From NCBI RefSeq assembly GCF_001679785.1, contig NZ_CP016292.1:245379-309378 (forward strand): a DNA stretch of 64,000 bases. Reading direction: 5' to 3'. This document shows, piece after piece, positions 13,535-64,000 of this stretch (positions within the stretch are counted from its first letter, which is position 1; each line of letters starts with the position of its first letter). The DNA comes from Rhizobium leguminosarum. Its GTDB lineage: Bacteria > Pseudomonadota > Alphaproteobacteria > Rhizobiales > Rhizobiaceae. The position numbers and the translations under genes are program-made. The notes beneath the pieces are model-generated. The model was not told the origin of the DNA. It did not search any database and saw nothing but the letters and a program-made list of their open reading frames with translations.

Positions 13535-14536
13535 TGTTTAGTCCCGGCATTTGATGGTGCATTATTTTCCTTAGAATGGAGGGAGGCACTATGGGCCAGG
13601 TTCTACACGGGAGCGCCACAACGACAGAGGCAATCCGTCGAGCAATACAAAATAGTGAAGAGAGCCTGAGAGCGCTTTCAAAGCGGTATGGGGTCAATCA
13701 GAAGACAATAGCCAAATGGAAGAGACGGACATCATTGGCCGATCTTCCGACAGGCCCGAAGGACCCGCATTCGACAATCCTCTCCCTTGAAGAAGAAGCC
13801 GTCATCGTCGCCTTTCGCAGGCATACATTGCTGCCTCTTGATGACTGCCTCTATGCCCTTCAACCGACGATCCCGCATCTGACACGTTCGTCCCTGCACA
13901 GGTGTCTGCAGCGCCACGGCATTTCACGCCTGCCGGAAGTGAAAGGCGACAAAGAACCGAAGAAAAAGTTCAAAAGCTACCCGATCGGCTACTTCCACGT
14001 CGATATTGCCGAGGTGCAGACGGCTGAGGGCAAGCTCTATCTCTTCGTGGCGATTGATCGCACGTCCAAGTTCGCCTTCGCTGAGCTCTATGCCAAAGCT
14101 GGCAAGATGAATGCCGCCCAGTTCCTGCGCAACCTGATCGCGGCGGTGCCCTACACCATCCATACTATCCTGACCGATAATGGCATCCAGTTCACCAACC
14201 GGGCCTGTGACCAAAATGCCTTCCAGCACATCTTCGACCGAGTCTGTGAGGAATACGAGATCGAGCATCGCCTGACAAAGGTTAAGCACCCATGGACCAA
14301 TGGGCAGGTCGAGCGGATGAACCGGACGATCAAGGAAGCGACTGTCAAGCGCTTCCACTACGACGATCACGCACAACTGAAAAAGCATCTCGCCGACTTC
14401 ATCGACGCCTACAATTTTGGGCGCAGGCTCAAGACACTAAAGGGCCTCACCCCCTACGAGTTCATCTGCAAAAGGTGGACTTCCGAGCCAGATCGATTCA
14501 TCATCGATCCTATCCATCAAATGCCGGGACTAAACA
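13535..14536 (+). mobile_element. Complete IS481-family element, 1,002 bp
   Basis: Perfect terminal inverted repeats begin TGTTTAGTCCCGGCATTTGA at the left, with the complement at the right end (about 14514-14536). A 6-bp target duplication CCTAAG and a single transposase gene complete the picture. It is inserted in the last codons of the NRPS gene in convergent orientation. The intact repeats and duplication point to a recent simple insertion. Confidence 0.92.
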
Positions 14537-14541
14537 CCTAA
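13591..14541 (+). CDS. IS481-family transposase (DDE)
   Basis: A 316-residue transposase: N-terminal helix-turn-helix (SEESLRALSKRYGVNQKTIA), then an integrase core with Asp in YFHVDIAEVQ, Asp in ILTDNGIQFT and Glu in TNGQVERMNRTIKE, and the family tail KTLKGLTPYEFICKRW. ATG 13591 is preceded by GGAGGCACT, an excellent ribosome binding site; the frame opens earlier at 13576 without support. The coding region passes through the right inverted repeat, so the Thr codon straddles the IS edge and the TAA lies in the target duplication. It therefore overlaps the convergent NRPS 3' end by 12 bp. Confidence 0.94.
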   Translation: MGQVLHGSATTTEAIRRAIQNSEESLRALSKRYGVNQKTIAKWKRRTSLADLPTGPKDPHSTILSLEEEAVIVAFRRHTLLPLDDCLYALQPTIPHLTRSSLHRCLQRHGISRLPEVKGDKEPKKKFKSYPIGYFHVDIAEVQTAEGKLYLFVAIDRTSKFAFAELYAKAGKMNAAQFLRNLIAAVPYTIHTILTDNGIQFTNRACDQNAFQHIFDRVCEEYEIEHRLTKVKHPWTNGQVERMNRTIKEATVKRFHYDDHAQLKKHLADFIDAYNFGRRLKTLKGLTPYEFICKRWTSEPDRFIIDPIHQMPGLNT

Positions 14542-15375
14542 GGCTCGTGATATGGAGCGTGCCAGAACTACGCGGTTTTGTGGAACGCTCATCAATGTTT
14601 CGTGCCTACCTGGGATCGGCACAGCATGAATGGCCGCCGCACCTAGAACCCGGTCCCAACCGCGCATGGGTGAGCTTGCCTCTGGACCTATTGAGGCTTC
14701 ATCAGGTGGTACCCGACGACTGATGAGAGGCTCAGTGGCATAAAACTGATGTACCTCAATTGGCAGCGACGGAACCCGATACGACTGTAGCGCCGCATGA
14801 AATTGCGCGCTTTTTTCATACATCAGAACAACGTTTTGGAGATCACGATCCAGAGGTATCGCCCCGATTTGCTGTGCCTTTTCAAGCAGCTGTGCGATCG
14901 AACTTTGTCTAGTAAAGCGTTCCAACACTTCGAAGCTCTCATCATCCAAGGATTCAAAAGAATCCAGTACGACTTCTCGTATCATTTGGGTGGGCGATAT
15001 GCTTGATGGATTTGCAGGTAGCGTAACATCGATGAGAGCGATGAACGACACAGCGTCATCGAGACTCAGCAATCGCTGTGCGATTGCGTAAGCCAATATT
15101 CCGCCTGATGAGTATCCAGCCAATCGATATGGACCCCGGGGCTGAATCTCTCTAATCGCCACGATGATCTCCGCGGCTATCGCCTCAAGGGTTGGTGGAC
15201 GAACTTCATCGAAAGACGGCCATGGCAAAGCATAGACGGGACAGTCTACGTCCATTTCCTTTACCAAACTGGGGACATAGGAACAATCGCCCAAACCTGT
15301 GGGAACAAAGAACAGCGGCGGCTGCGAGCCGGTTGCTTGAACGGATATCACTCCCGGATTGCTGAGCTGTGGTCC
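14530..15375 (-). other. Terminal thioesterase (TE) domain
   Basis: The last ~280 residues form an alpha/beta-hydrolase release domain: the strand-turn LFFVPTGLGDCSYVPSL, the nucleophile elbow GYSSGG with the catalytic Ser, an Asp in ALIDVTL or nearby, and the His in PGRHETLMS close to the end. It is a single TE that would release the peptide by hydrolysis or macrocyclisation; the sequence does not decide which. IS481 truncates only residues after the fold (RALG), so activity may survive. Confidence 0.88.
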
Positions 15376-63700: not shown

Positions 63701-63990
63701 AACCGCGCCAAGATAGCGCTCCAACAGGCCACGGTCGCAAAGGCCATCTGCGAGACCAGCAGATAGGGATCGCCCCGGCTGGCCAGCAGATGATGGAACA
63801 GGATGCCGTCCTGCAGCGGCGACAGGCCATAAATGTCCTGGATGTTGCCGACGCCGCCGGGAACCGTGGCGACGATCCGGTCGATCTCCGGCTGGGCCAG
63901 CTCGATGAGCGGCAGCATCTGCGGCGTAATCGCCGTGCTGTGCTCGGTGATCAGGTTGGCCGGCACCGCCACCTCGTGATGGCTGCCAAG
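60755..63990 (-). other. NRPS module M15: dual C/E - A(Ala, GSS variant) - T, frame-broken
   Basis: Dual-type C (about 62.5-63.99 kb), meaning the residue of the unseen module M16 should be D. The pocket block 61545-61990 is the alanine-type block with the GSS variant shared with M9. T Ser codon 60853-60855. It has at least nine small deletions and one apparent substitution (63,396). Confidence 0.7.
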
Positions 63991-64000
63991 GCTTGCGGCC

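Follow-up and report, generated by a model that had tools for sequence, protein, structure and literature searches.

Organization of the locus

The window, that is the whole 64,000-nucleotide stretch analysed, corresponds to C7:245379-309378 in a source assembly of 8.57 Mb and 8 contigs. Contig C7 (309,378 bp) is a repABC plasmid of a Rhizobium with one RepC, and position 64000 of the window is its last base. An NRPS gene spans 14530-64000 on the minus strand and, according to the motif map and the ORFs, consists of 15 C-A-T modules followed by one TE. The modules (M1-M15, 15484-64000) run from 64000 towards 14530 with 15 T motifs (FFELGGHSL), 15 A3 motifs and 15 C active-site motifs in order; the TE region (14530-15510), recognized by its ORF content and TE relatives, comes after the last T domain, where it would serve peptide release. 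Ordered C-A-T motifs and a terminal TE characterize a type I modular NRPS. A preliminary description, made from the letters alone, had proposed 15 consecutive modules of ~3.25 kb on one strand, a single TE at the gene end and the tail of a further T domain at the right edge. All of this is borne out: M2-M15 measure 3.18-3.29 kb, one TE stands next to the last module, and M1, truncated by the window edge, is preceded at the contig end by the tail of another T domain. The proposed lack of intergenic gaps and docking-like linkers between modules likewise holds within the 5,557-aa ORF, where neither a gap nor a docking-like start is seen.

The C active sites are of the HHLIGDH type in 11 modules and of the HHIVSDG type in four. 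According to the accessible text of PMC1894796, dual E/C domains are marked by a second N-terminal His motif, HH[I/L]xxxxGD. This motif is present as HHLLASRGD in 11 of the 11 non-ordinary C domains, in which the active site reads HHLIGDH and not HHxxxDG. From N to C, the C domains are dual in M1, ordinary in M2, dual in M3, ordinary in M4, dual in M5-M10, ordinary in M11, dual in M12-M13, ordinary in M14 and dual in M15, after which the TE follows.

Between motifs A3 and A6, a core of ~400-440 bp (~140 residues) occurs in the window as six discrete types, a to f. Type b is carried by M1 (60850-64000), M5 (47968-51218), M7 (41465-44712), M8 (38213-41464), M12 (25219-28470) and M14 (18739-21927), type c by M3 (54401-57647), M6 (44713-47967), M9 (34958-38212) and M15 (15484-18738, adjoining the TE), and type e by M4 (51219-54400) and M11 (28471-31664); types a, d and f are found in M2 (57648-60849), M10 (31665-34957) and M13 (21928-25218), respectively. 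All modules lie on the minus strand and were assigned by motifs and core typing, except that the types of M1, M3, M4 and M7, whose core frames are broken, rest on DNA similarity. M5 is near 100% identical to M8 and M12, and M5-M6 is repeated as M8-M9. Specificity codes were read from motifs, the fourth position (written as a dash) being unreliable. By the usual code tables, we take type a to be Val-like (DAF-LGGTFK), b Ala-like (DLY-NALTYK), c Phe-like (DAW-IAAVCK), d Ser-like (DVW-VSLIDK), e Leu-like (DAW-LGNVVK) and f Thr-like (DFW-IGMVHK). An intact form of the gene is predicted to yield an N-formylated, mostly hydrophobic, D-rich peptide of Ala, Phe-like, Leu, Val and some Ser and Thr residues. 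In the type c pocket, the residue after FDASA is W in M6 and S in M9 and M15, possibly a substrate change inside an otherwise conserved cassette.

The DNA beside the NRPS gene (1-14500) consists mostly of mobile elements common to Rhizobium plasmids; among them, an IS21-type element (istA/istB, 10585-13215) is 99.8% identical to copies on the Vaf-108 plasmid and to a copy on C4 (L010). When the region 3′ of the TE is compared (9001-14529), the sequence shared with ml4, ml59 pSymA, Vaf-108 and Rhizobium sp. 007 extends over 63-244 bases at 99-100% identity. The flanks diverge beyond this short stretch, and thus the NRPS gene occupies different neighbourhoods. On the plus strand, antisense ORFs of up to 916 aa recur inside the modules and in their register (e.g. 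17068-19818 and 23548-26298), and probably just reflect codon composition. The window gave no matches in Rfam and tRNA scans, nor did a 16S rRNA search of the source assembly find any in this assembly, which is rated 100% complete.

Frame breaks

ORFs of 5,557 aa (14530-31203), 3,451 aa (31850-42205) and 3,003 aa (42037-51048) are followed, as far as 64000, by short ones. No single continuous ORF links starter and TE in the window copy, which contains frame breaks and misses its 5′ end. Frame-changing indels in scaffold columns number nine in M1, four in M2, five in M3, three in M4, one in M5 and none in M6-M15, counts that exclude the core columns, while module lengths reveal extra net frame changes in M7, M10 and M11. 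Sixteen of these 22 indels are single-base, 21 fall within M1-M4, and half of them (11/22) lie in or adjoin a run of three or more. Singleton substitutions amount to 1-21 per module, and those in M2 (16) and M3 (10) imply that the differences are not all indels. Low accuracy of the genome as a whole was considered as an explanation and rejected, since all 150 scored ABC_tran domains of the source genome (438 candidates) are free of stops. Given the single-base nature of most indels, their crowding in M1-M4 and the stop-free ABC_tran domains, the breaks are probably technical, in line with the sequencing errors that had been considered; their most likely source is faulty assembly or polishing of the repeats near the record cut.

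The contig end and the probable loss of the 5′ part

The other end of C7 (L007) lies within the same NRPS gene and in the same orientation as the window end. The last 400 bases of the window (63601-64000, minus strand) and the first 400 of C7 map adjacently on internal module copies with 14 bases between them (for example at 28381/28396 and 18649/18664), which, together with the one RepC, fits a circular plasmid. To judge from the position of its ends, C7 is most likely circular and linearised inside the repeats, the alternative being a graph assembler that halted both ends at one repeat border. Circularity would place the missing 5′ part at C7:1-2434, where the gene probably continues. This segment, M0 (2,434 bases, outside the window), comprises A, T and the 3′ half of a C domain, with a type a core, and is cut in the middle of the C domain by a 1,109-bp IS5-type element (C7:2435-3543). 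The next 8.5 kb (C7:3544-12000) match neither the window NRPS nor that of Sinorhizobium medicae nor the starter; C7 has its next condensation domain at 160,654. Extension of the probably circular contig, from which a start codon had been expected, thus leads to one partial module cut by an IS and then to NRPS-free DNA.

No formyltransferase (F) domain occurs within the window or C7:1-12000, and the window copy as assembled shows no F initiation. On C4 (C4:357567-360783), a starter fragment combines Formyl_trans_N, an incomplete C domain and an A domain; it adjoins a 99.9% identical copy of the IS5-type element that cuts M0; target-site duplications are not evident in the IS flanks. We infer that the C4 starter and the C7 modules were once one gene. 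Since M0 is cut by an IS and the starter lies elsewhere beside the same IS, the window copy is, as far as its DNA indicates, probably 5′-truncated and not functional. The idea that it encodes a protein of more than 16,500 residues, rivalling or beating the kolossin A synthetase, is not supported for the same reason: the 5′ end is probably lost, with the F starter on another replicon.

Core cassettes on a homogeneous scaffold

All 105 window module pairs are 97-100% identical over A1-A3 (gaps ignored), a degree of repetition that chance does not explain. Medians over the same region are 59-82% in 12 non-rhizobial control loci with three or more A domains, one of which has a single pair at 95.8%; low A1-A3 identity (64-75%) is also seen in four loci of the rhizobial set (L020, L106, L112 and L125). 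Cores were compared in 49 modules (1,176 pairs) from five replicons (window 15, ml4 12, pSymA 8, pMl1 10 and Vaf-108 4), with starters, modules outside 2.8-3.6 kb and M0 left aside. Their identities are bimodal. Cores of the same type have a median identity of 98.5% between replicons (88.8-100, n=185) and 99.8% within one replicon (n=46), and cores of different types share 59% (54.8-63.3, n=945). Across replicons, five types have minima of 97.5% or more, type f being represented by one pair only, and type e is looser (88.8-94.9%).

On its 5′ side, the core is flanked by sequence that is 95-100% identical everywhere. The 3′ flank has medians of 98.1-99.5% within replicons versus about 93% between them, an effect that is weak in the window (94.5% within versus 91-92% to other replicons). 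The left breakpoint of the cassettes lies in the A3 motif (within a 16-residue stretch) and the right one around A5-A6 (within an 18-residue stretch). Identity thus falls sharply only within the core and recovers in the flanks, the pattern of A-core cassette exchange. Core types a, b, c and e are each found behind both C-domain types. Module order and number vary between most replicons. Plasmids of ml4 and ml2 have one common order of 13, and the last three of the nine modules of ml59 pSymA (dual f, ordinary b, dual c) are in common with the window.

Relatives of the gene

A TE scan of genome contigs gave, among the best 80 of 234 relatives, 21 loci (L013-L033) with TEs 50-82% identical to that of the window, hosted by Mesorhizobium, Sinorhizobium, Bradyrhizobium, Aminobacter, Rhizobium, Paraburkholderia atlantica and Cupriavidus necator UYPR2.512; outside these loci, the best full-length TE match among the same 80 is 30%. 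In a set of large proteins (about 3,060-9,720 residues; 1,065 candidates scored, of which the best 120 of 707 are considered), the 47 best TE matches (53-100%) come, where an organism is named, from rhizobial genera including Paraburkholderia, and the following ones drop to 45, 41 and 36%. Among 508 plasmid records, the TE is present at 95-99% in 11, at 80-90% in one and at 60-80% in 36. In a sample of the order, a TE search found matches at E of at most 1e-60 in 2 of 397 genomes.

Nine of the 11 closest plasmid records were examined (CP140963 and CP140936 were left out), and three of the nine have an uninterrupted F-to-TE reading frame. The ORFs of S. medicae ml4 and ml2 (14,439 and 14,441 codons) run stop-free from F to TE, with 13 T motifs and the architecture F-A-T, 12 C-A-T, TE; in Sinorhizobium meliloti ml59 pSymA, the open F-to-TE ORF has 10,131 codons and nine T motifs. 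The notion that all Sinorhizobium relatives are intact was rejected: in ml59 pMl1, an ORF of 12,968 codons ends before the TE, which sits in another frame, and annotation splits the NRPSs of ml21, ml45 and ml60 into pieces. Of the several NRPS copies in Rhizobium sp. 007 most are broken, and the Vaf-108 plasmid record breaks off within the gene. The earlier view of a one-gene giant therefore applies to the lineage, which has such genes in ml4 and ml2, and not to the window copy, which has frame breaks and has probably lost its 5′ end.

The distant relative G029 has its NRPS split into two overlapping genes of about 2,310 and 11,090 aa, flanked by an ABC exporter and, by eye, by genes resembling those for a PLP enzyme, an acetyltransferase and a phosphopantetheinyl transferase. 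In the records of ml4, ml2 and both ml59 plasmids (L127, L128, L130 and L131), the annotated NRPS starts after the F domain, and the open frame extends upstream through it. NZ_CP018234.1 (R. leguminosarum Vaf-108; L124:2-934 and the right end of L129) is deposited as circular and is cut inside an NRPS of the same family, with the TE at the record start, the F-starter and modules at its end, and a last module that seems to lack its A domain. On the ml4 plasmid, a gene annotated as effector NopP (L122:25953-26843) lies ~5 kb downstream of the intact NRPS.

The dN/dS ratio of the TE is 0.56-0.73 between close copies, which differ by 11-19 changes, and 0.11 versus G029, a comparison in which dS is saturated; against pSymA, the last two modules give 0.36. 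As to a possible link with symbiosis, all seven congeners whose TE reaches 57% identity or more carry NodA, versus 58 of 141 others (p=0.0026, by a statistic that ignores kinship), and the relative G141 (TE 43%) has no NodA. The nodA gene of the window's own genome is on C5, not on C7.

Origin of the mosaic and competing explanations

The window is best explained as a 5′-truncated plasmid copy of a rhizobial giant NRPS, the cassettes of which have been shuffled by recombination and the frame breaks of which are technical; we regard this as likely. The intact form can be one gene, with an F-A-T starter, many C-A-T modules and a TE. As established domain families suggest, each module would load one amino acid chosen mainly by the ~140-residue core of its A domain, dual E/C domains would epimerise the upstream residue before joining while ordinary C domains would not, and the TE would free the peptide. 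The mosaic suggests that homologous recombination between near-identical scaffolds may lengthen, shorten and re-code the array, swapping core cassettes and homogenising the remaining scaffold. In the source strain, the gene would have lost its 5′ end, with the IS5-type element cutting the first module that remains and a starter lying on another replicon.

The window may instead be part of an NRPS gene that is complete and functional, with at least 16 modules and larger than that of the kolossin A synthetase; the IS junction, the missing start and the frame breaks would then all be artefacts of assembly. Technical-looking breaks, the existence of intact one-gene relatives, the failure of assemblers at repeats and multi-copy IS, and the Vaf-108 plasmid record, likewise cut within the NRPS gene, speak for it. 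The IS, however, is just 1.1 kb long and is embedded, on C7 as on C4, in contigs that are otherwise coherent, 8.5 kb of C7 after it are without NRPS sequence, and no other condensation domain appears on C7 before 160 kb, so that this explanation is improbable and a new NRPS size record for the window copy unlikely. The number of modules could also be partly an artefact, the true gene being shorter and M5/M8/M12 and M6/M9 multiplied or mischained by the assembler. The identity of about 100% between M5 and M8 and the recurrence of M5-M6 as M8-M9 would fit, as would the frame breaks and the record cut, which show that assembly was difficult here. Against this, core order differs between the repeats, so that reads of a few kb can place them, and scaffolds just as uniform are found in the 13 modules of relatives whose sequences look accurate; we hold an inflated count to be rather unlikely.

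The mosaic may also be a side effect of drift in a plasmid gene that is decaying and full of IS, where gene conversion homogenises the tandem repeats, as it does in any such array, and the cassette variety is inherited and unselected. The 3′ flanks homogenised within replicons and the many broken copies, in Rhizobium sp. 007 and in six of the nine close records, are in line with drift, which nevertheless seems somewhat doubtful in view of three observations: identity across replicons remains at 97.5-100% in five of the six cassette types despite changed positions, three records retain stop-free ORFs of 30-43 kb, and the TE dN/dS is 0.11 over the longer distance, though at saturated dS. It is tempting to propose, tentatively, that alpha- and beta-rhizobia share a mobile, largely plasmid-borne combinatorial NRPS array making a strain-variable N-formyl peptide with a role in nodule competition or host interaction. 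In such an array, interchangeable ~140-residue cassettes from a small common pool would sit in a homogenised scaffold, and module number and order would set the peptide.

Relation to known systems

The kolossin A synthetase of Photorhabdus luminescens (plu2670) has 15 modules in 49.1 kb according to the available part of PMC9002308. Like the rhizobial family, it is a giant one-gene NRPS for a D/L peptide, with a formylation domain in its initiation module; the accessible text of PMC8949500, which mentions this domain, counts only three NRPs with an F-domain formyl group described by 2022. It belongs to another bacterial class and is set apart here by its description, not by alignment of the kolossin sequence itself. 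The rhizobial family differs in being plasmid-borne, with near-identical module DNA and exchangeable cores, and the window copy lacks its 5′ end. Linear gramicidin is a hydrophobic D/L peptide, a likeness to the predicted rhizobial product, and its synthetase LgrA also has an F domain in the initiation module (F-A-T). Among PDB sequences, the M15 A domain is matched best by LgrA chains. In contrast to LgrA, the rhizobial starter has a partial C-like stretch between F and A, release is by a TE, and one gene holds up to 13 modules in the relatives.

Exchange of A cores, or flavodoxin subdomains, by recombination is known in NRPSs (PMC9205934, PMC12184294 and PMC8616955, in their accessible portions), and the likeness is close: the substrate-binding core is swapped, and C, the C-terminal part of A, and T are left in place. 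The exchanges treated there are individual swaps between diverged modules, or engineered ones. In the rhizobial NRPS, nearly all modules share one scaffold, and a small pool of cores serves several strains in two genera. TAL-effector arrays offer an analogy, in that their tandem near-identical repeats have a variable part that sets specificity and an order re-coded by recombination; the proteins are unrelated, and DNA-binding repeats of 34 residues stand against NRPS modules of 1,080 residues.

The findings of note are the intact one-gene relatives and the cassette mosaic across replicons, the latter absent from the preliminary description. No description of this family was found in titles and abstract openings, a source in which subscription papers are thinly covered, and it may be in print elsewhere; the survey of rhizobial plasmid gene clusters in PMC10434180 does not describe it in its accessible part. 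NRPS engineering swaps A subdomains singly and laboriously, and nature seems to have done so throughout giant genes. The defined borders (A3 to about A6), the one scaffold and the at least six cores amount to a parts list with border rules. They also suggest that plasmids of nitrogen-fixing legume symbionts encode a family of variable peptides, and if module order changes between close strains, NRPS evolution could be watched directly.

Additional NRPS sequences in the source genome

The source genome contains a second NRPS lineage, ~84% identical, at C5:190049-203218 (L009). It has a 4,389-aa open frame with four C-A-T modules, a docking-like N-terminus and no TE seen, and lies on the same replicon as nodA (C5:408689). 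More copies of this lineage, broken or partial, are found at C7:160480-174299 (L008) and C4:417360-427778 (L010).
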